Shown here piece by piece: positions 12,363-47,372 of a stretch of 64,000 nt of DNA (position 1 is its first letter; each line of letters begins with the position of its first letter). The translations under genes and the position numbers were made by a program. This stretch comes from an uncultured Kiritimatiellota bacterium. GTDB lineage: Bacteria; Verrucomicrobiota; Kiritimatiellia; RFP12; DVOR01. The stretch spans positions 1 through 64,000 of the forward strand of contig CALXMT010000003.1 of NCBI GenBank assembly GCA_944389545.1. Reading direction: 5' to 3'. The notes beneath the pieces are model-generated. The model was given only the letters and a program-made list of their open reading frames with translations. It ran no database searches and was not told the origin of the DNA.

Positions 12363-14780
12363 TCACTGGAGTTTGCTGAAGGGTTTGGGGTCAAAGGCGT
12401 TGCGGACGCCTTCGCCGACCATGACGGTGAGGAACATGACGGTGAAGATGGCCAGGGAGGGGAAGAGGATGAGCCACCAGGCCTCACGGTGGGTCTGGGC
12501 TTGGTTGAGGAGCTCGCCCCAGCTGGGGGTGAGGGGCGGCAGGCCGAAGCCCAGGAAGTCCAGGGAGACGAGGGCGCTGATGGCACCGACGAGGAGGAAG
12601 GGGAAGAGGGTGATGATGGGGGTGAGGGCGTTGGGGAGGATGTGGCGGAAGATGATGCGGGCGTTGCTCAGGCCTTGGCAACGGGCGGCGGCGACGAAGG
12701 GCCGGTCACGCAGGCGGAAGAACTCGGCACGCATATAGTAGGAGAGGCCGAGCCAGCAGAAGAGTCCGTAGACCAAGAGCAGGAGCCAGAAGCTTTGGCC
12801 GAAGATGGAGCCGACGAGGACCATGATGTAGAGGAAGGGCAGGGCGGCCCAAATCTCGGTGAAGCGCTGCATGCAGATATCGACCTTGCCGCCGAAGTAG
12901 CCCTGGATGGAGCCGATGAGCATGCCGATGAGGGTGGCGGCGAAGGCCAAGAGCAGACCGAAGCTCATGGCGATGCGGGTGGCGTAGACGATGCGGGCGA
13001 AGACGTCGCGCCCGGATTGGTCGAGGCCGAAGAGATGCTCGCCGGAGGGCGGGAAGGGGAAGCGGATATTGTTGCCGGAGAGGACCTGATAGGTGGGGCT
13101 GGCCTCGTCGGCGAAGTAGACCTGGGCATCCTTGGCGGTGAGGTCGCCGACGGGGCGGACGTTGAGGCGCTTGCCGGCGGCGGTCTCCCAGTGGGCGGGG
13201 TCGGGGCGGACGGCGGTGCCGGCCTTGCCGAGCTCGGGGTGGTCGAGGACCAGGCGGCCGGAGAAGAAGACGGCGGGGTTGGGGAGGGCGAGCTTGGGTT
13301 CGCCGTCAACGACCCACCGGCCGTCGACACGGCGGACGATGTCGCCGGAGACCGCGATGCCCTCCGCGCCCTTGTAGTCGCCGCGCAGTTTGCCGCCGGT
13401 GATGAGGAGGACGTTGGCGAGGGGTTTGCCATCGGCGGTTTCCCAGCGTTCGGGGACCTGCACGGCGGGGGTGCCGGCCTTGCCGAGGGGGCCATCCTGC
13501 GCGAGTTTGCCGTCTTTGAGGAGGGCGGCATCGACGGGCTTGCCGTCCATTTCCCAGTGCGCGGGGACTTGGCGGACGGGGGTGCCGAGTGTGCCCTGCG
13601 GGCAGTCTTGGGCGAGGCGGCCTTCGAAGACCAGGGTGGGGTCCTTGAGGGTCTCGGCGCCGACTTCCCAGTTGGGATAGGCGAGGATGGCCTGTGCGCC
13701 GGCCTTGCCTTGGGGCAGGTCTTGGGCGAGGGTGGCGATGGTGAGGTCGATGCCGTAGGGGATGGGCTTGCCCTCGGCGTTCACCCAGCGGCGGGGAACG
13801 AAGGTGACGGGGGTGCCGGCGGGGCCGTAGTCGGAGGTCTGGGTGAGCTTGCCGTTGAGGATGGGGACGCCGCTGTTTTTGGGCGCGGCATCGTCGCGGA
13901 CGGTGTCGTAGAAGCTCATGTTGGCCCACTTCTTGAGGGCGGCCAAGAGCTTGTCGTCGGGCTGGCTGTCGCTCTGCTCCGGCAGGAAGCGGAGTTCGCC
14001 GGGGCGGCCATCATCGTCGAAGTCGCGGGTGAAGGCGAAGGTGCGGGTGGGCAGGAAGCGCTCGCCGTCGGCGAGGCGGAGGGTGACGCGCAGGGTGCGG
14101 GTGGACCCTTCGCCGATCGCGGTGGGGGCGAGGGTGAGCGAGAGGCGCTTCCACGGGAGGTCGTGGCCCGCGGCGGGTGCGACGGTGGTCTCGTAGGGGC
14201 CGAGGTCTTCGCCGCCGATGCGGCGCGCAATCTCGTCGGCAAGTTTTGGGGTGACGTCGATGAAGTCGTAGAGGCTGATTTGGCCATCGCGCAGGTCACG
14301 CGAGGAGGTCTGCTTGGGGAAGAATTGGAGGCAGTTGTCCTGGCGGACGATGGCGAGGTCTTGGGTAAGGTTGAAGCGGCCGACGGGCTGGGTGGGGACG
14401 AGGGTGAGGGTGACGATTTTGTCGCGCTCCAGGTCCTTGGTGTCGAGCGTTTCGTCGGGGCTGTAGGGGATGGGGGCGAAGAGGGCGTAGTTGTCGGGGT
14501 TCTGGGTGAAGACCTCGCTGCGGACGAACTCGCGGTAGTTGACGTAGACGCGTTCGCCGGTGGCATCCAGGACGGCCTGCGGGGGGAGCTCGCGGAGGAA
14601 GGGGAAGTAGGTCTCGCCGTCAAAGCGCATCATGAGCGGCTTGCCGTTGCAGATGAGCTCGGCGCAGAGGCTGAGCACGTAGATCAGGCACAATAGGCAA
14701 AGCGACCAGAAGGCGACGCGGCTGCGGCGGAATCGCTCGAGGCGTTTCTTGGTGAGGGGGGAGAGGGTGAAGAGCGTCAT
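12363..14780 (-). CDS. OppC/YejE-like ABC permease with large periplasmic repeat insertion
   Basis: Inner-membrane permease, 805 aa, more than twice the usual 300-350. It has an N-terminal span (about residues 21-38) and a YejE-like stretch (GKPLMMRFDGETYFP). A long periplasmic part contains six degenerate repeats of 37-45 residues (about 305-547) built on GKLAQD..GKAGTP..VP..WE..GKP. Then comes the normal C-terminal permease with LFGLDQSGRDVFARIVY, five or so membrane spans, and the EAA-type loop AAARCQGLSNARIIFRHILPN. The ATG at 14780 has GAGGA upstream. No OppA or OppB homologue lies in the operon. The permease assignment is firm; the role of the insertion is unknown. Confidence 0.9.
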   Translation of the reverse strand: MTLFTLSPLTKKRLERFRRSRVAFWSLCLLCLIYVLSLCAELICNGKPLMMRFDGETYFPFLRELPPQAVLDATGERVYVNYREFVRSEVFTQNPDNYALFAPIPYSPDETLDTKDLERDKIVTLTLVPTQPVGRFNLTQDLAIVRQDNCLQFFPKQTSSRDLRDGQISLYDFIDVTPKLADEIARRIGGEDLGPYETTVAPAAGHDLPWKRLSLTLAPTAIGEGSTRTLRVTLRLADGERFLPTRTFAFTRDFDDDGRPGELRFLPEQSDSQPDDKLLAALKKWANMSFYDTVRDDAAPKNSGVPILNGKLTQTSDYGPAGTPVTFVPRRWVNAEGKPIPYGIDLTIATLAQDLPQGKAGAQAILAYPNWEVGAETLKDPTLVFEGRLAQDCPQGTLGTPVRQVPAHWEMDGKPVDAALLKDGKLAQDGPLGKAGTPAVQVPERWETADGKPLANVLLITGGKLRGDYKGAEGIAVSGDIVRRVDGRWVVDGEPKLALPNPAVFFSGRLVLDHPELGKAGTAVRPDPAHWETAAGKRLNVRPVGDLTAKDAQVYFADEASPTYQVLSGNNIRFPFPPSGEHLFGLDQSGRDVFARIVYATRIAMSFGLLLAFAATLIGMLIGSIQGYFGGKVDICMQRFTEIWAALPFLYIMVLVGSIFGQSFWLLLLVYGLFCWLGLSYYMRAEFFRLRDRPFVAAARCQGLSNARIIFRHILPNALTPIITLFPFLLVGAISALVSLDFLGFGLPPLTPSWGELLNQAQTHREAWWLILFPSLAIFTVMFLTVMVGEGVRNAFDPKPFSKLQ

Positions 14781-36362: not shown

Positions 36363-36391
36363 TTGACATTCTGGTGGGAATGGGGTATCTT
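36363..36391 (+). promoter_or_regulatory. Sigma-70 promoter (TTGACA-N17-TATCTT)
   Basis: TTGACA at 36363-36368, 17 nt, TATCTT at 36386-36391. Predicted transcription start near 36398. It is the best -35/-10 pair in the window and stands in front of the structured RNA and the cohesin/dockerin gene cluster. Confidence 0.75.
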
Positions 36392-36397
36392 ATAGAC

Positions 36398-36628
36398 ACC
36401 GTTTGAGTTGCGGTGGAGCCGCGAGGCCCCCCACCACGCCTCAGACACATGAAAGCATGCGTCACGCATACTTTCGTCCGATGGAAATTAGCACCTTTCA
36501 TGAAGGGACGAACGTATTGCGGAGGCGCGTCTGGGTTATTCCCCAGGCGTGTTTCTTCGTATCGTCTCTTCCTTCAGGGTAGTGCTAAGCCTCCATCGGA
36601 GACACGGTCGGCGGAGCACGCCTTTTTT
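36398..36628 (+). ncRNA. Structured RNA or leader, ~230 nt, family unknown
   Basis: From the predicted start to a run of six T (36623-36628). By eye, ACCGT at the 5' end pairs with ACGGT (36604-36608), GGTGGAG (near 36412) with CTCCATC (near 36591), GAAAG-C-ATGCG-TCA-CGCAT-A-CTTTC forms a hairpin (about 36453-36477), and CGCGTCTGGG pairs with CCCAGGCGTG (about 36521-36546). GGCG-GAGCA-CGCC before the T-run could terminate. Closing stem, bubble and size recall 6S RNA, but I could not confirm any family; tmRNA, SRP RNA and RNase P motifs are absent. It may be an attenuator-type leader for the gene at 36687. Confidence 0.5.
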
Positions 36629-36686
36629 GTGCCCGCCTCTCCGGCGAGGACCTCTTCGTCCACGCCATAACGTTAGGAGATGGACG

Positions 36687-37565
36687 ATGAGTGTGCAACC
36701 GATGAGTAAACAACTTGAAGAGGTGTTGACTCACAATCCTTGGGCGGGCAAGGCCAAGTCGTGGTACAAATATGTGCCAGGTGAGAAGTATTACTTTGCC
36801 GAAGACAAGGCGGCAATTGATCAGTTCAATGTAAACTCAAATGGCAAGACCGTAAAGGTTCATTTTGAACTCCCTCCGCAACCCTTCATTGGTGACCCTG
36901 ACGCGCCGATTTGGATTCTTCACCTTTGCCCGGGATACAGTGATATAGACCTCTACGATATGGTCTCTATCGATCACGAACTTGATGGTACGCCCATTGT
37001 GAAGAACTGTACGAAAGAGGCCTTCGAGGAGCGTCGCAAGTCCCTCTTCCGCCAGTTGGACTTTTCGGAACCTCATCCGTTCTATGTCTTAAAAGAAGAG
37101 TTCCGGACCATCAAACAACAAAACAGAATCCATTTAAATGGCACCTATGGATGGTGGTACAACTATCTTCTGGAGGGGCCAGACTCCTTCTTGACAGAGC
37201 ACGATTTGGACAAGTGTTTTGTATTGGAAGCTTTTCCCTATCACTGTGATACGACCGACAAAGAAAAGCATTGTAATCCCTCTGCCTCTTTGATTCGGAA
37301 GATGTGTCATCACGATTTTTGGTGTAAGTTGGTGGAATACGCGTTTGCACAAGACAAAGCCATCATTGCTCGACGTGGAGTTGCATCGTTGGTAGAGAAT
37401 TGTCTCAAGAACGTGAAAACAGACAAACTATGTGTGTTCACCTCCACGCAGAACATTTACCTAACGAAAGGTAATGTCGCGAAGCGGTTTAAACATCGCC
37501 ATAGACCTACCCAAGCGGAGCGCGATTTCGCTTTTTGTCGTATTACTGAAAAGTTGTCTAAGTAA
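36687..37565 (+). CDS. Hypothetical protein with weak uracil-DNA-glycosylase-superfamily resemblance
   Basis: A 292-aa soluble protein, more AT-rich than most genes here. Residues 74-88 (PIWILHLCPGYSDID) resemble the first motif of UDG-like folds. A later strand carries FPYH (183-186), then IARRG (227-231), STQN (253-256) and KGNV (261-264), an order I recall from widespread uncharacterised proteins ending in a (S/N)PQN..SPGN motif. Catalytic function is not established. The ATG at 36687 has TAGGAGATGG upstream. It is the first coding gene after the structured leader and 10 bp ahead of the LRR gene. Confidence 0.6.
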   Translation: MSVQPMSKQLEEVLTHNPWAGKAKSWYKYVPGEKYYFAEDKAAIDQFNVNSNGKTVKVHFELPPQPFIGDPDAPIWILHLCPGYSDIDLYDMVSIDHELDGTPIVKNCTKEAFEERRKSLFRQLDFSEPHPFYVLKEEFRTIKQQNRIHLNGTYGWWYNYLLEGPDSFLTEHDLDKCFVLEAFPYHCDTTDKEKHCNPSASLIRKMCHHDFWCKLVEYAFAQDKAIIARRGVASLVENCLKNVKTDKLCVFTSTQNIYLTKGNVAKRFKHRHRPTQAERDFAFCRITEKLSK

Positions 37566-37575
37566 GAGGTCCCCT

Positions 37576-38796
37576 ATGAAACGGTTCTTCACACTTTTTG
37601 TGTTGTTGTGCGCCCCCATTCTTTCCGCCGATACATGGCAAGACCCTGAAACCGGAATCACTTGGCGGTATGGCATCCGTTCTGATGGCTCTGTCTCTAT
37701 TTGGGGAGTTGTTGGGGAGCTTCCTGCACATCTGGTAATTCCTTCAGAAGTCAATGGATATCAAGTGATAGCAATCGGAGAATTCGCCTTTCTCAAAGAA
37801 ACATCTCTGCAATCTGTTGTTATTCCAGAGGGGGTGACAACACTTGAAACTTATGCGTTTGCGGGGTGTTCTTCGTTGAAATCTGTTGTTATTCCAGAGG
37901 GGGTAACATACTTTTTCTCTGGAGTGTTTGAGGAGTGCACTTCATTAGAGTCGTTGGTAATTCCTGCCAGTATGAAAGGTTTTGGATTAGAGGAGTTTAA
38001 ATATTGTTCATCATTAAAGTTAATAGTATTTAAAGGAGATGTTCCCGGTAATGTCGAAGCAAGTTCTGCAAGTAGGTATCCGATTTCTTACCCGTTTGTA
38101 TATGCGAATAATTGGCAAAAGTCTTTTCCAGACAAGCCATGTGAGATTTTTTCGGATGGAATTCTTCCGGCGCAGGTGAATGTGTATACACACACTGAAC
38201 TGACGACGCCAAAGACGATGAAGGTGACGTACACGATAAAGGGGAATCTGCCGACAGTGAAGGTTCGTGCGGTGGCATGGAAAGACGGCGTGCGTAGTTT
38301 TGCCAATATCATTCCCGTGCGGACGGGAGAAGGTATCCCAAGTGGAGAGCGTGTGACCACAAATGAGGAACATTCTTTCGTGTGGGACGTGGCGAGCGAT
38401 TGGGCCTCCGACTTGGACAAGGTGACGGTGGAGATTCTCGTTCAAGAGGGGGCACTTCTGCCGCAGGATTTTGTCACCATTCCCGCAACAGAGACGCGCA
38501 AGGCGATGATTATCACGCGGAATGTCTTGCTAGAATCGTGGCTTTTTGATGCGTTGGTATGGTGCTATGCGGAGGGGGATTCGCAGTTGCAAGTAAAAAA
38601 TGGTCGAGCCTATGTGAACGGTACTCAAGTCGCGAATGCGGCCTCAGTTTCTCCTGATGCGCTGAATTATCTTTATGGCAAAATGGGTTATAAGGTGCTT
38701 GCCGGGGAGGACTTGAAATATGCGGAGGCGGCGACGCGGTTGGACTTCTCGGACAATGGGCTTAACCAAGTCTCTGTGAAGATTGAGGAGGAGTGA
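37576..38796 (+). CDS. Secreted leucine-rich-repeat (BspA-like) surface protein
   Basis: A 406-aa exported protein. The signal peptide is at residues 1-18 (FFTLFVLLCAPILSA). Residues about 50-165 hold four or five BspA-type repeats (TSLQSVVIPEGVTTLETYAFAGCSSLKSVVIPEGVTYF). The C-terminal 200 residues (KVTYTIKGNLPTVKVRAVAW... to ...LNQVSVKIEEE) form a separate non-repeat domain. The LRR half is AT-rich and the C-terminal half less so, which hints at a chimeric origin. The ATG at 37576 follows AAGAGG. It is 2 bp from the scaffold gene, so co-translation is likely. No sortase or lipid anchor is seen. Confidence 0.8.
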   Translation: MKRFFTLFVLLCAPILSADTWQDPETGITWRYGIRSDGSVSIWGVVGELPAHLVIPSEVNGYQVIAIGEFAFLKETSLQSVVIPEGVTTLETYAFAGCSSLKSVVIPEGVTYFFSGVFEECTSLESLVIPASMKGFGLEEFKYCSSLKLIVFKGDVPGNVEASSASRYPISYPFVYANNWQKSFPDKPCEIFSDGILPAQVNVYTHTELTTPKTMKVTYTIKGNLPTVKVRAVAWKDGVRSFANIIPVRTGEGIPSGERVTTNEEHSFVWDVASDWASDLDKVTVEILVQEGALLPQDFVTIPATETRKAMIITRNVLLESWLFDALVWCYAEGDSQLQVKNGRAYVNGTQVANAASVSPDALNYLYGKMGYKVLAGEDLKYAEAATRLDFSDNGLNQVSVKIEEE

Positions 38797-38798
38797 GG

Positions 38799-41700
38799 AT
38801 GGGATGGGCGCGAGGGTTGGCGCCGGTCGTGGCGTTGGCCTTGGGCGGGTTGGCCGCCCAAGGCTGGGGGCAAAATGCCGCCCGCGTGACGGTCAAGCAG
38901 GTGGACAGTTTCGGAACGGAATTGGCCGCTGAACAGTATGTCTCTACGGACGCGGTCTTCACGTCGGTGGCGGCGCCGGAGCGGAGCGGCAAGCGCTTCA
39001 CTCATTGGACGGTGGAACCGACGCAACCAGGCTTCGTGAACCGCGACGCATGGGGACGGGCGTTGGACGCAGTGCAACTGACGCCGAAGGACGCGGTCGT
39101 CACATTGACGGCTGTCTATGTGGACGTGGCAGAGGACACGGACGGAGATGCCATCCCCGATGCGGACGAACGCTATTGGTATGGCACGGCGAGCGCCTAT
39201 GACACGAAAGGTTCGCTCCAATGGGATGGCGCGAGCGACACGGACGGCGACGGCTACACCTTCGCCGAGGAGTTGCAGTGCACGCTAAACCCACTCTTTC
39301 CGAACGAACTCAAGCTCGGCGGCGTGGCCTACGGTGACAGCGCAACGGTGCTCTACAACCCGAACGGTTATGTGCCCTACACGGTGCGCTCCGACCCCGA
39401 GGGCGAACTCTTTGCGACCTACTCCGCCTCTGTGCGTCCGGGGACGGTTATTACGACCAAAGAGTCCTTCTCACCGGACGACTCGACCTTCGCCTACTGG
39501 ACGGTGAACGGCGTGCGCCAGGCCGACGCCTGGGGCGTGGCGACGAACGTGGCAATCTTCACGGTGGGCAACGAGCCCATTGAGGTGGTGGCCCACTGTG
39601 TGGCGGACGAACAGTCGCGTCAGTCGCTCTATTGGTATGGCGGCGATGTGGGGCCGGATTCCGATACCGACGGTGACGGTTACACCCTCTCTGAAGAGTT
39701 GCAATATGGACTAAGCCCCATCTTTCCGAATGAACTTAAGCTCGGTGGCGTGGTCTACGGCGACAGCGAGGTGGTGCTTTACAATCCGAATGAGTATCCC
39801 GAGGTGACCATCCGCTCTGAGCCCGAGGGCGTCTTCGCCACGGAGAGCCTGGTGCTGCGTCCCGGGCAGGAACACACCACGGACACCTATACGCCGGACG
39901 ACCGCTTCGCCCAGTGGACGCGCAACGGGGAACGTCAGGCCGATGCGTGGGGCCGCGCACTCGACGCCGTGACCATCGTCGGTAACCCGGGCGTGGGCAA
40001 GGTGGAGCTCGTGGCCGACTTTGTGGACGACGAGCACACACGTCTCTCACGCTATTGGTACGGCGTGGACAATCAACCTAAGGACTCCGACACCGACGGC
40101 GACGGTTACACCTTCTCCGAGGAGCTGCAGGCTGGCATGAATCCGCTCTTTCCGAACAAACTCGTCCTCGGCGGCGTGGCTACCGGCGACGGCCCGACGC
40201 TGGAGAGCAACCTGCAACCCTTCGACATGGGCGGCCTCGCCTTGGTGGAGGGCGCCTTGGAGGAACTCTTCGCGACCCTCGACGGCGCGACGGGGGAACT
40301 GACGGGCGGCCGCGACTTCGGCGGCCCCGCCGCCGTGGCGGTCGTGGACTTCGACCAAAACGAGGCCTTCGACGTCCTCGTCTTCGCCCAAGGCGTCCTC
40401 TGGACGCTTCGCAACGTCGGCGTCGCGGGGAGCCCGGAATGGGCGATTGCCCCCGCCGCGGAGGTCGCCGAACAGCCCGGCCTCGCCGCGTTGGAGTGCG
40501 CCCTCGCCGCCTTGGCACGGCCCGTGATGGCCGGCGGCGCGGCCGAGGCCGGCCCGGCGGTCTGGTTCTGCGACGACGGCGGGCCCGTGCGGCGCCTCGA
40601 CCTCGCGACGGGCGCCGTCGCCGAGACGGGCCTCGCGGGCTTCCCCGTGTGGGACGCCGCCGACGGCCCCGGCGTCTTCGCCGACAACGCCCTTGCCCTG
40701 GCCGCCGGGCAAAGCCTCCCCCTCGATGCGGCGGTGGAGGCCCCCTGCGCCGCGGCCTTGTCCGATGCGACGGGTGACGGTGCGGCCGATTTGCTCGTGG
40801 CGGATACGCAGGGGCGCATCTCCCTCTATGCCCGGACGGCGGATGGTTTCGCCCTTGAGCACCGCGTCTGGGGCGGTTCTTTCATTGGTTTCGCCGAGGG
40901 GCTGACCTTAGCCCCTGTGGACTGGGAGTCCGACGGTGACCTCGATATGCTCTGCGGTACGGCCACGGGCAAACTCCTCCTGCTTAGTGACCCGAACGTG
41001 GGCAGACCGAGTAACCTCCGTGCCACGGCGGGGTATGACAACGTCCTGCTGACGTGGGACCCGAACGGCCAGTCGCGCGTCTATGGTTACGGCGTCTACC
41101 GTGCGCAGGGGGCCGACTTCGCCCGTATTGCCGAGGCGTTGCTCCCCACCCACCGCGACACGCCGCCGAGCCTTGCCACGTGGGCCTACCGTGTGACCGC
41201 GCTCAGCCGCCTCTGGACCGCCGGCAACTCCGTGCCAGAGACCTTCGAGAGCCTCCCCAGTGAGGTGGTGAGCGTCGACCTCGGCGGCATCACCCTCTCG
41301 ATGCCCGAGACGATTGCCTCCTACGACGATGCGGAGATTGCCCTGCCCATTATGGTGGACAACACCAAGGGGCTTGGTGCTTTCACCCTCACCGTGACCT
41401 ACGACCCCATGATTGTCGATCCGTTGGGCTACGAACCTACCGCCCTTACCGAGGGCCTTACGGTCACCTCCACGCCCGCCGATGGCACTTGGACGCTCTC
41501 GGCCACCGGAGCACTCACGGCAGGTTCTGGCCCCTTCTTCCGTTTGCGCTTCCACGTCAAGGCCGGGGCCTTCGGCGAGACCGTCTTCCGATTGACCGAG
41601 GCCGATTTCACGGCGACCGACGGTAAGCCCGTCGCTACCAACGCGCTCCCCATCGAGACCACGCTCACGGTGCAGGCGCGGCCCCTCCCCGCCACCGTCT

Positions 41701-43292
41701 CCCTGCGGATGGAGGACGCCCAGGCCAAGACTGGCGAAACCATCCGCGTGCCCGTGTCCGTCGAGTCCGCCAACTCCATCGACTGGGCTACGCTCACTCT
41801 TACCCCGGCCTTCGATGCCGGCAAGCTCCGTCTGGTCTCTCGTACCGAGGCTACCGAGACCGAGCCGACCCTTACCCTCACCTTCGAGGTGTTGGAGCAA
41901 CACGGCGACAATCTCTTCACTACTGTCACCGTCTCCGGTACGGCTACAAGCGCGAACGGTCTCCCCGCCACCGTCCTTCCCGCCACCGCCACCATCTCGA
42001 TCACGGACAGCAACCCGCCCGTACCCGCAATCGTTACGCTGACAACGACGGATGTTCCCGCGAACGTGGGCGAAACAATCACGGTCACGGTCGCGGCCCG
42101 CAGTGAAGGGGATTTGCTTTGGGAAACACTGTCATTGACTCCCGACTTCGACAAGTCTTGGTTGGAGTTGCTTGGTCAGACGCCCGCCACGGCATCCATG
42201 CCGGCGACCTTCTCCTTCAAGGTCTTGGAGCGCTTCGGCGTCAATCTGGCCACGGCCATCACTTTCTCGGGAACGGCCATGAGTGCCAACGGACTCGCGG
42301 CCACCGTCGGAAGTGTCACCTGCCGCGTGCTCATTGCCGACAACCCGCAGGAACCGGCAGTCGTCTCGTTGAGTCTGCCCAACCAGACCGTGGACACGCT
42401 GTCGCGCGTGTCGTTGACTGTCGAGGCGACTGCGGTGGGCGAGGTCGAGTGGGACACACTCGCACTCCATGCGCAGTGGGATGCCTCCAAACTCGACCTC
42501 GTCTCGCAGGAGGGGCGTACCTTCGTCTTCGACGTCAAGGACGTTCACGAGGACCTTTCCACGACGATGACTATCACCGGTACGGCCACGAGCACGAATG
42601 GACTTCCCGCGATTGTCCAGCCGGCCACTTGCACGCTCACGTTTATTGACACGAATCCGCCGGTGCCGGCGGTGGTGACGTTGGCGGCGGAGGGTGGAAG
42701 CGCGATGACGGAGAGCGAGGTGACGCTTGCGGTGCGTGTGAGCACGGTGGGTGAACTGGACTGGGGGACGTTGGCGTTGACGGCGACCGTGGAGGCCGGC
42801 GGCTTGGAGCTGCGGAGTCAGACGGCGGCGACGGTCGAGAACCCGACGGCAACCTTTACCTTCTGGGTGCCGGAGCAGCACGGGGACGACCTCTTTGCGC
42901 GGGTGACCTTCACGGGCTCGGCAACGAGCGCGAACGGTCTGCCGGCGCAGGTGGCGCCGACGACGGTGACGTTGGCCCTCACGGACAGCAATCCGCCGAA
43001 GGATCCGACGGAGGTGCCGCCGTGGTCGAGCGGGGATGTGGATGGCGATGGCAAATTGACGTGGGACGACTACGCGACGGCCCGTGCGGCTATTCTGAAG
43101 TATCACCGTCCTACCATTCGGCCGCCGAGTCACTCCTCCGACCCGAACGCGACGGACAACAAGGTGCACCGTTCCATCTGCCAGGCGCTCGGGCGCGGGG
43201 AGAATGAGACGTTGTCCATCGCGGACATCACGGCGTTTCAGCGGTATCTCGAGGGGATTTTGGGCGAGATGCCCAAGGAGGCGACGCGATGA
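38799..43292 (+). CDS. Giant secreted scaffold with cohesin-like repeats and C-terminal dockerin
   Basis: 1497 aa, exported (signal peptide about 1-25, ending near GWGQ). Domains in order: three repeats of about 140 residues, each with a DTDGDGYTF calcium-type loop (near 147, 288 and 430) and an FPNEL/NKL..GGV block; an FG-GAP-like propeller region (about 490-725; DATGDGAADLLVAD, DWESDGDLDML); a fibronectin-III-like domain (about 737-810); a cohesin-like domain (about 829-950; VTYDPMIVDPLGYE); four tandem related domains of about 100 residues (964-1397), each ending ATSANGLPA...DSNPP; and a dockerin type I-like end (1408-1494; GDVDGDGKLTWDDY, second half LSIADITAFQRYL). The ATG at 38799 has GGAGGAG; a GTG at 38793 is possible. 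Confidence 0.75.
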   Translation: MGWARGLAPVVALALGGLAAQGWGQNAARVTVKQVDSFGTELAAEQYVSTDAVFTSVAAPERSGKRFTHWTVEPTQPGFVNRDAWGRALDAVQLTPKDAVVTLTAVYVDVAEDTDGDAIPDADERYWYGTASAYDTKGSLQWDGASDTDGDGYTFAEELQCTLNPLFPNELKLGGVAYGDSATVLYNPNGYVPYTVRSDPEGELFATYSASVRPGTVITTKESFSPDDSTFAYWTVNGVRQADAWGVATNVAIFTVGNEPIEVVAHCVADEQSRQSLYWYGGDVGPDSDTDGDGYTLSEELQYGLSPIFPNELKLGGVVYGDSEVVLYNPNEYPEVTIRSEPEGVFATESLVLRPGQEHTTDTYTPDDRFAQWTRNGERQADAWGRALDAVTIVGNPGVGKVELVADFVDDEHTRLSRYWYGVDNQPKDSDTDGDGYTFSEELQAGMNPLFPNKLVLGGVATGDGPTLESNLQPFDMGGLALVEGALEELFATLDGATGELTGGRDFGGPAAVAVVDFDQNEAFDVLVFAQGVLWTLRNVGVAGSPEWAIAPAAEVAEQPGLAALECALAALARPVMAGGAAEAGPAVWFCDDGGPVRRLDLATGAVAETGLAGFPVWDAADGPGVFADNALALAAGQSLPLDAAVEAPCAAALSDATGDGAADLLVADTQGRISLYARTADGFALEHRVWGGSFIGFAEGLTLAPVDWESDGDLDMLCGTATGKLLLLSDPNVGRPSNLRATAGYDNVLLTWDPNGQSRVYGYGVYRAQGADFARIAEALLPTHRDTPPSLATWAYRVTALSRLWTAGNSVPETFESLPSEVVSVDLGGITLSMPETIASYDDAEIALPIMVDNTKGLGAFTLTVTYDPMIVDPLGYEPTALTEGLTVTSTPADGTWTLSATGALTAGSGPFFRLRFHVKAGAFGETVFRLTEADFTATDGKPVATNALPIETTLTVQARPLPATVSLRMEDAQAKTGETIRVPVSVESANSIDWATLTLTPAFDAGKLRLVSRTEATETEPTLTLTFEVLEQHGDNLFTTVTVSGTATSANGLPATVLPATATISITDSNPPVPAIVTLTTTDVPANVGETITVTVAARSEGDLLWETLSLTPDFDKSWLELLGQTPATASMPATFSFKVLERFGVNLATAITFSGTAMSANGLAATVGSVTCRVLIADNPQEPAVVSLSLPNQTVDTLSRVSLTVEATAVGEVEWDTLALHAQWDASKLDLVSQEGRTFVFDVKDVHEDLSTTMTITGTATSTNGLPAIVQPATCTLTFIDTNPPVPAVVTLAAEGGSAMTESEVTLAVRVSTVGELDWGTLALTATVEAGGLELRSQTAATVENPTATFTFWVPEQHGDDLFARVTFTGSATSANGLPAQVAPTTVTLALTDSNPPKDPTEVPPWSSGDVDGDGKLTWDDYATARAAILKYHRPTIRPPSHSSDPNATDNKVHRSICQALGRGENETLSIADITAFQRYLEGILGEMPKEATR

Positions 43293-44599
43293 GGGCGTTC
43301 TTGGCGTGCGTGGCGGCGTTGGCCGCCGGAATCGCGGCGGCACGGACGGTGTCGTTGGGCGCCGTGGTGTGCAACCCGGGGGCCCGGCTGACGGTGCCGA
43401 TTGAGGTGGACGACGTGGCCGGGGTGGCCTCGGTCTACGTGCGGGTAACGTATGACCCGCTGGTGTTGGCGTTGGTGGAGGTGCGTCCCGGAACGTTGCA
43501 AGAGGCGTTCGGGACGGACTTTGTGACGGCGTCTGACGCGGGGTCGGCGTGCGTGTTGGCCTTCGGTCGCGAGAACGCGGCCTCGGGTTCGGGAAGCGTG
43601 GCGGAGTTGGTCTTTGAGGCGCGGCCCGGGTGCGAGGGGATGTATTCGGACGTGGCGTTGGCGGAGGCTCGGTTGGAAGAGCGGACGCAGACCGCGGACC
43701 TAACGGTGTCGGTGCCCTTGGAGCCGACCAACGGGATGGTGCGGGCCTTCGCGCCGGACGGCACGTGCGAGACACGTCAAGGTGCGGCCACGGTGACGGT
43801 GGCCGCGGAGACGACCCTGCGTTGCCTGACCTTGGCAGCGGGGGACGCCTTGGAGGCGAGCGCAAGCGCGGAGCCGCGCCCCATCACCGTGACGGAGGCG
43901 CTCGCCGCCGAAGGGACCTTGCGGGTCTTGCCGCCGGAGGGCGGTTGGGCGACGGCGCGTTATGAGGTTTTGCGTTGCCCGGCCTCGACGCCGACGCTGA
44001 CGTTGGAGGCGGCGGAACCGCCGGAGGCGTGGACGGTGACGGCGCTCACCGAGGGCGGGACGACGACCTACGTGTTGGAAACGACCGTGGAGACGGAAAT
44101 CCCTGTCCTGACCGAGGCAGAGTTATCGCCGGCGGACGCGAACCTGCTTCGCGAGCTCCTGGCGGAACGTTTGGACGGCGTGACGGCCATCCGCGCGGAA
44201 GGTTCGCGCGAGGCGATCTTGGCCGGCTTGGATTTGGGTATTGTGCCGGTCTGCGCGGTGGAGAATGGCACGTTGACGGCGACCTTCGAACTGCCTGAGC
44301 TGCGCATCACCGCCTTCGACCCCGCGACGGGAACGGTGCAGGTGCGGGTCATCCCCGCGGAGGGCGCAACCATCACCCAAGAGGTCCGCACGGGCGTCTT
44401 GCAAGTGTGGGCGACGGAGGATCTTGGTGTGGAGATGAAAGCCGTGCCGGACGCGGCCTTCAGTCTGCAGAACTATGTCGGGCAGGGCTTGGCCGGTGTG
44501 ACGTTGCCGGAGGCCTTCCGTCTGAGTTTGGGACGAAACCTTTTCATCAAAGTGGTCGCCGATCATCCGGCGGCCGCGGAACAACCAACCGGAGACTAA
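43289..44599 (+). CDS. Secreted protein with N-terminal cohesin-like domain
   Basis: 436 aa. The signal peptide is at residues 1-19 (AFLACVAALAAGIAAA). Residues about 20-150 have the cohesin pattern: VVCNPGARLTVPIEVDDVAG, VRVTYDPLVLALVEV, and GSVAELVFEARPGCEGMYSDVAL. The remaining 280 residues are beta-rich and Thr/Glu/Ala-rich without a recognised domain; EIPVLTEAELSPADANLLRELLAERL forms one helical segment. It overlaps the scaffold gene by ATGA. It could receive the dockerin of the preceding protein, which is an inference from domain types. There is no anchor motif; the outer-membrane barrel gene follows after 6 bp. Confidence 0.7.
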   Translation: MRAFLACVAALAAGIAAARTVSLGAVVCNPGARLTVPIEVDDVAGVASVYVRVTYDPLVLALVEVRPGTLQEAFGTDFVTASDAGSACVLAFGRENAASGSGSVAELVFEARPGCEGMYSDVALAEARLEERTQTADLTVSVPLEPTNGMVRAFAPDGTCETRQGAATVTVAAETTLRCLTLAAGDALEASASAEPRPITVTEALAAEGTLRVLPPEGGWATARYEVLRCPASTPTLTLEAAEPPEAWTVTALTEGGTTTYVLETTVETEIPVLTEAELSPADANLLRELLAERLDGVTAIRAEGSREAILAGLDLGIVPVCAVENGTLTATFELPELRITAFDPATGTVQVRVIPAEGATITQEVRTGVLQVWATEDLGVEMKAVPDAAFSLQNYVGQGLAGVTLPEAFRLSLGRNLFIKVVADHPAAAEQPTGD

Positions 44600-47287: not shown

Positions 47288-47372
47288 CAGAAAGAACGCC
47301 GCCGGAGAACACGAGGGTGTATCACCAGCATGAGCAATCATGTGGTAGTCGTGCCGGGGGTTCTTTCTTTTT
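47288..47372 (+). ncRNA. Candidate small RNA / convergent terminator hairpin
   Basis: About 85 nt between the TATAAT at 47277 and six T at 47367-47372. AGAAAGAAC and CCGG near the 5' end pair with CCGG and GTTCTTTCT before the T-run, enclosing a 49-nt loop. It overlaps the last 35 nt of the DUF3800 coding region in antisense and, read on the other strand, also resembles that gene's terminator (T-rich TGCTTTTATT). Confidence 0.4.

Follow-up and report, generated by a model that had tools for sequence, protein, structure and literature searches.

The window, by which we mean the whole 64,000-nucleotide stretch of DNA that was analyzed, carries an operon on the forward strand that is headed by a promoter and a long structured leader. 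The operon and its signals are laid out as follows.

36363..36391, + strand: promoter, with TTGACA at 36363-36368, a 17-nt spacer, and TATCTT at 36386-36391
36398..36628, + strand: structured leader RNA (fold z of -7.6; z of -7.36 for a 263-nt fold; covariation in the core)
36673..36679, + strand: Shine-Dalgarno sequence TTAGGAG of the first gene, read in the sequence
36687..37565, + strand: first gene, 292 aa, with a uracil-DNA-glycosylase-like predicted fold; candidate anti-phage protein
37576..38796, + strand: second gene, a BspA-type leucine-rich repeat protein (LRR_5), with its start placed by eye within the ORF 37474-38796
38793-43292 and 43289-44599, + strand: third and fourth genes, with cohesin-like domains

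The promoter named in the initial annotation, TTGACA and TATCTT separated by 17 nt, is present at 36363-36391. Close copies of the RNA keep the same spacing between the -35 and -10 boxes, and a promoter score of at least 10 out of 12 was reached by 22 of 88 copies versus about 1% of shuffled sequences. Reading from the -10 box, we infer that transcription starts at approximately position 36398. The annotation had also called the transcript strongly structured, and the predicted fold of -119.3 kcal/mol (z of -7.6) was equaled by none of 200 shuffles. As it had stated as well, a T6 run at 36623-36628 ends 59 nt upstream of the ATG at 36687. The RNA is made up of the following parts.

36401..36446, + strand: P1 stem-loop, 36401-36420 with 36425-36446, with compensatory pairs
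36449..36477, + strand: P2 hairpin, 36449-36461 with 36465-36477, in the predicted fold
36473..36512, + strand: candidate pseudoknot, TTCGTCC at 36473-36479 with GGACGAA at 36506-36512
36473..36607, + strand: conserved core, the long arm P3-P4-P5, 36478-36535 with 36542-36599, matched by the covariance models R1 and R2
36519..36535, + strand: seg1, the 5' strand of P5 and the partner of seg2 in predicted fold A
36544..36572, + strand: seg2, the shared strand, pairing in fold A with seg1 and in fold B with seg3
36597..36624, + strand: seg3, the rival partner of seg2, which holds the Shine-Dalgarno sequence in other copies
36605..36643, + strand: local hairpin seg3:seg4, its loop holding the U-run; the fold A state in the predicted minimum-energy fold
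36623..36628, + strand: U-run (T6), terminator-like, closing the fold B stem

The individual pairings drawn in the annotation fared less well than its outline of the locus. The closing stem proposed between ACCGT and ACGGT retains some pairs in a 243-nt fold and is absent from the 263-nt fold, and its 5' bases vary among copies. As for the proposed inner stem of GGTGGAG and CTCCATC, the local partner of GGTGG is CCACC, within P1, and CTCCATC is part of the long arm. In the fold of lowest predicted energy, the local hairpin at 36605-36643 carries the T-run in its loop. P1 differs from subfamily to subfamily, and distant copies have, as judged by eye, a short GCG..CGC hairpin at the position of P2.

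The annotation had seen no tmRNA, SRP, or RNase P motif, and the window RNA matched no common family of Rfam 15 at gathering scores or at E values up to 10; the further copies searched had no Rfam match either. The T-box model gave no match at the copies searched, no Rfam riboswitch model matched the RNA, and the 6S model (RF00013, which is part of Rfam 15) gave no match at its gathering score or up to an E value of 10. Permissive scans returned only subthreshold matches to unrelated families. The sole permissive match for the window was to an lncRNA, at 15 bits, on the opposite strand and outside the RNA, and a match of the suhB model in copy L139 reached 19.9 bits against the 41 required and was judged to be chance. 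Across the window, Rfam matched tRNAs and one DUF3800-VII RNA, both away from the leader. The DUF3800-VII RNA (RF02967) lies at 47291-47371 on the + strand with 57.4 bits against a cut-off of 36.2, and it is flanked by a TATAAT-like box on the 5' side and a T-rich run on the 3' side. Both it and the leader are small structured RNAs without an assigned role, encoded in one genome, but the DUF3800-VII RNA belongs to a different family, is 81 nt long, and does not overlap the leader. Finally, no description of an RNA like the leader was found in the open-licence PMC literature. We conclude that the family is previously undescribed, as judged by Rfam 15 and the open literature searched.

With the window RNA as query, BLASTN found two further matches in its own genome and matches in 13 of 40 genomes, its own counted. 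Nearly all of these belong to the same genus, and the single match beyond the genus spans just 27 nt. R1, a covariance model covering the core arm, gave matches in 16 of the 17 genus genomes; for the order the figure was 80 of 161 genomes and for the class 94 of 345. Within the class, Kiritimatiellae, a second covariance model built on 86 copies, R2, matched 171 of 332 genomes, and across the phylum it matched 94 of 377 sampled genomes, 22 of those 94 from other classes. The counts from these large searches are lower bounds, because few candidates were scored per genome. Antisense model matches were removed as mirror images of better matches (20 of 91, 3 of 43, and 1 of 22 rows), and the named carrier genomes are metagenome assemblies. 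In the genome of the window, R2 returned 22 matches, one of them a mirror image of another, leaving 21 copies; one extra copy (G000:C1:40171) was seen by R1 alone.

One alternative offered by the initial annotation was a stand-alone small RNA, resembling 6S RNA and ending at the U-run. The RNA does have its own promoter, a U-run, and a strong fold, and 6S RNA likewise combines a promoter with a long folded transcript. However, a search with cmscan gave no match to 6S, the whole of Rfam 15 was without a match to the RNA, and the family is multi-copy and linked in cis to its genes, with 21 dispersed copies in one genome; 27 of 130 copies have a Shine-Dalgarno sequence within the RNA. A 6S-like RNA is extremely improbable here, and we set that alternative aside.

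Dispersed copies might also mark a mobile or recombination element, such as a MITE or an attC-like cassette site, that has landed before accessory genes. Many copies per genome, a patchy distribution, two nearly identical leaders heading different genes at a distance of 3.6 kb, and one tandem second match are what such an element could leave behind. It is the RNA pairing that is conserved, however, with G-U wobbles included and divergence accompanied by compensatory changes, and the examined copies point to an ORF at short distance. Moreover, no similar copy was found in mobile sequences: the window copy matched none of 72,556 plasmid records and none of 50,697 phage records, a single-copy query by which distant copies could be missed, and the exact core pattern, the one pattern searched, was absent from viral contigs. 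We consider a mobile element very improbable. The exact core pattern was found in 17 stretches of genome contigs. A stretch in Saccharopolyspora (L084) was rejected as chance, R2 being empty in that one genome, a result that by itself carries no weight.

Two observations on single copies may be recorded here. At G000:C8:9511-9641 and 13078-13208 (L184 and L185), the near-identical leaders 3.6 kb apart precede two different genes, one encoding GtrA, as if the leader had been copied along with new genes. At L020 and L022 (G001:C27 and G005:C5), the copies retain their promoter and only half of the RNA, the 5' one, before running on into other sequence; both loci stood outside the co-evolution tests described below.

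Covariation in homologues, which the annotation had named as a check, was looked for and found. An early alignment of 18 copies had 50 consensus pairs, 26 of them with compensatory changes. In an alignment of 86 copies, standard pairs occupied 96.5% of pair cells, and changes on both sides were seen in 33 of 38 base pairs. Double-change cells numbered 757 in the 86 copies versus 210 when shuffled and at most 135 when the partner was slid. The 86-copy alignment had been fitted to the structure, and therefore an alignment-free test was added in which the duplex energy of a copy's own strands was compared with that obtained with partners from other copies, over 88 non-redundant copies and after removal of a partial copy (L027:4530). 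P3 gave -23.4 kcal/mol with its own partner versus -9.1 when swapped, with 98% of the copies ranking within the best 5%, and P4 gave -13.7 versus -7.9 kcal/mol. The pseudoknot, which would join the beginning of the core to P4 on its 5' side, gave -7.8 versus -5.6 kcal/mol at a median rank of 0.087; of the 88 copies, 42% ranked within the best 5%, and it is more weakly supported than P3 and P4. We conclude from these comparisons among copies that the leader RNA is real and conserved as a structure.

The arm has a competitor for one of its strands. The strand that forms the 3' side of the terminal hairpin is seg2, which pairs inside the arm with seg1, and seg3, directly 3' of the arm, complements seg2 over approximately 25 bp in nearly every copy. 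Energies of own versus swapped strands in the 88 copies were -32.8 versus -23.8 kcal/mol for seg1:seg2 and -35.6 versus -23.9 kcal/mol for seg2:seg3, and the control pairing seg1:seg3 was flat at -18.4 versus -18.3 kcal/mol. A later set, 20 loci fetched afterwards that yielded 18 non-redundant copies, placed 17 of 18 copies in the best 5% for seg2:seg3, 16 of 18 for seg1:seg2, and 1 of 18 for the control. The co-evolution of both helices stands separately inside and outside the genus, with all rows of L027 left out of the genus part of the later test. The seg3:seg4 hairpin co-evolves weakly, with a median rank of 0.21. In the window, the seg2:seg3 helix of fold B comprises 24 bp at -32.9 kcal/mol; a 25-bp stem exceeds the length of an ordinary terminator stem.

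Seg3 starts where P3 ends, and therefore folds A and B should not coexist. Indeed, none of the predicted minimum-energy folds holds both helices. In the two helices with seg2 as a strand, G-U wobbles reached 19.8% and 16.4% versus 3.9% in P3, an excess to be expected if seg2 serves two partners. For 80 of the 88 copies the unconstrained minimum-energy fold of the full-length RNA contained P3, and for 7 it contained seg2:seg3; fold B lay a median of 12.6 kcal/mol above the minimum-energy fold and was itself the minimum in 6 copies. Nearest-neighbor energies favor fold A; thus, they do not by themselves predict flipping, and we infer which way control runs. By their design, the exclusive pairings would constitute a riboswitch-type expression platform.

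What follows seg3 suggests how such a platform may act. A T-rich 8-mer, with at least five T's, came after seg3 in 84 of 88 copies versus 23 of 88 and 31 of 88 for control stretches. Seg3 itself contains a Shine-Dalgarno sequence in 27 of 130 copies, with an ATG coming immediately after, and therefore fold B would bury the ribosome site there. In the other copies, the window included, the gene lies further 3' and has its own Shine-Dalgarno sequence, and termination seems the likelier output. An ORF of at least 50 codons starts on the same strand within 330 nt 3' of the RNA in 106 of 110 copies, with the start within 100 nt in 91 of the 110, and in another set an ORF stood behind 20 of 20 copies. 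The ORF behind 106 of 110 copies and exclusive helices that end at a U-run or a Shine-Dalgarno sequence support the annotation's other alternative, an attenuator of the operon. Ribosome-mediated attenuation was rejected, as leader peptides were not in excess: closed ATG-initiated ORFs of at least six codons were present in 79 of 130 leaders versus 95 expected from shuffles.

A leader before genes of these kinds might instead remain in fold A and act on RNA polymerase, by processive antitermination or against Rho, for full transcription of long, horizontally acquired operons, with the U-run and seg3 being secondary. The antitermination leaders RfaH/ops, LoaP, EAR, and put head long, variable surface operons, and the surface, glycan, and defense genes with long ORFs found here resemble RfaH/LoaP-type regulons. 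Moreover, fold A is the predicted ground state, and each copy read heads a gene or operon. Left unexplained are the complementarity of seg2 and seg3 in nearly every copy, the U-run after seg3, and the 27 of 130 copies in which seg3 is the Shine-Dalgarno sequence, and RfaH/ops, LoaP, EAR, and put are not known to have a co-evolving terminator-like partner strand. Antitermination is, in our judgment, distinctly unlikely.

The genes behind the leader were scanned as the first gene of each operon only, in 101 of 106 ORFs (five near-identical ones removed); the ORFs were picked mechanically, and some starts or frames may be wrong. Pfam assigned 75 families among the 101 proteins, including BspA leucine-rich repeats (11), type III restriction/DEAD helicase domains (7), KAP NTPases (6), Mrr-type nucleases (4), N6/N4 methylases (3), GtrA (3), EcoRI-type methylase (2), and HsdM (2). 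Downstream proteins matched 235 PADLOC models at an E value of 1e-3, and 62 downstream proteins from the genus matched 57 models at 1e-10. The upstream control, one neighbor per copy with 56 of 59 scanned, matched 10 PADLOC models under three names with one protein per model, and its Pfam list was mostly housekeeping enzymes. We conclude that the first downstream genes are enriched for restriction-modification, KAP NTPases, other PADLOC families, BspA surface proteins, and glycan genes. Restriction-modification proteins follow at least seven copies in this genome (L086, L090, L091, L178, L180, L187, and L188), other copies precede GtrA-type, acyltransferase, and F420-dehydrogenase-like genes, and several downstream genes are without any family match. 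When the downstream products were aligned, no column past the first residue was conserved. In its attenuator alternative, the annotation had the RNA controlling the surface operon. Control in cis is supported, but the single surface operon is replaced by a phylum-wide, multi-copy family before phage-defense and surface genes.

Some downstream genes recur. At L086, L111, L112, L113, and L118, in five genomes, similar proteins begin right at the Shine-Dalgarno sequence of seg3, and the L086 protein is a PADLOC type II methyltransferase match for which the Pfam scan was empty. A near-identical long surface gene occurs in several genomes (L031, L032, L035, L036, L038, L097, and L099), with a class I leader at five loci and a much diverged leader at L097 and L099.

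The first gene of the window operon had no match in Pfam or PADLOC. An initial search of genome contigs at the protein level turned up no relative. An AlphaFold2 model made from three sequences was of low confidence (pLDDT of 56.2 and pTM of 0.62). When this low-confidence model was searched with VIA-align, 50 of the 50 rows listed were UDG-type, with a best Z of 7.4, below 8, and the best E value by Foldseek was 0.036. The model of Brig1, an anti-phage DNA glycosylase (NCBIfam NF047634), did not match the window protein, and it scored the homologue at L023 at 16.7 bits against a cut-off of 230. Five matches to the first-gene protein were found in 59 genomes of the order, the window's included, and the RNA was upstream of four of the five, directly or with one gene between. 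An anti-phage glycosylase under a defense-marking RNA would be a coherent but hypothetical picture. We note that at L201:1165-1277 (G007:C6), a second RNA match of 28.6 bits lies right behind the first and before the glycosylase-like gene, and the pair is a possible tandem leader.

Who reads the leader may also be considered in light of the genes that follow it. The same bistable switch might respond not to a small molecule but to its own product or to a dedicated or global RNA-binding protein, and the core is large, with a defined fold that a protein could read. The downstream products are mutually unrelated, with 75 Pfam families, and therefore autoregulation by each product is unlikely. We regard a protein-read leader as possible but doubtful. 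A type III toxin-antitoxin or AbiF RNA was rejected, with 75 Pfam families among 101 downstream proteins and not one toxin family. RCd22 is reported to neutralize one protein family by binding it (PMC12373285). The RCd22/abiF-motif and type III toxin-antitoxin RNAs (PMC12373285) share with the leader a structured RNA beside a phage-defense gene and negative control, but the proteins downstream of our leader are unrelated to one another and the putative terminator or Shine-Dalgarno switch is in the RNA itself.

Taken with its relatives, the window RNA is probably the 5' leader of the operon at 36687 and belongs to a new bistable, cis-regulatory, riboswitch-like family. In fold A, the arm would hold, seg3 would be left free, and the operon would be expressed. 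In fold B, seg2 would take seg3, a terminator-like stem would form before the U-run and/or the ribosome site would be buried, and the operon would be off. A putative effector on the arm, whether a small molecule, a protein, or another RNA, would bias the choice of fold and could thereby co-regulate restriction-modification, other defense, surface-protein, and glycan genes genome-wide. Riboswitches share with the leader its position, a conserved folded domain, and a strand common to that domain and to a stem that terminates transcription or sequesters the Shine-Dalgarno sequence. Unlike riboswitches, the family would control genes for defense and the cell surface, not a single metabolic pathway, and it has 21 copies in one genome. 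The family would work like a riboswitch, as far as its sequences indicate, and it is a candidate for membership among riboswitches proper.

How bacteria control the expression of costly or self-toxic defense genes is largely an open question. Here, one RNA family stands before many unrelated defense and surface genes in one genome, and the arrangement recurs across the phylum. Many downstream genes are without family assignment, and presence of the RNA may serve as a marker for unknown defense genes. If the RNA is a switch, its signal would be the signal that controls a defense regulon, and it could be found by standard aptamer methods. We offer, tentatively and as less probable than the leader assignment itself, that the family is a phylum-wide RNA sensor by which one infection- or stress-linked signal flips a dispersed immune and surface regulon through one riboswitch class. 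That regulon, to be taken just as tentatively, would span restriction-modification, KAP-type and other defense systems, glycosylase-like proteins, and receptor and glycan variants. Ultimately, if the sensor reading is true, one riboswitch class would control a bacterium's whole anti-phage arsenal.
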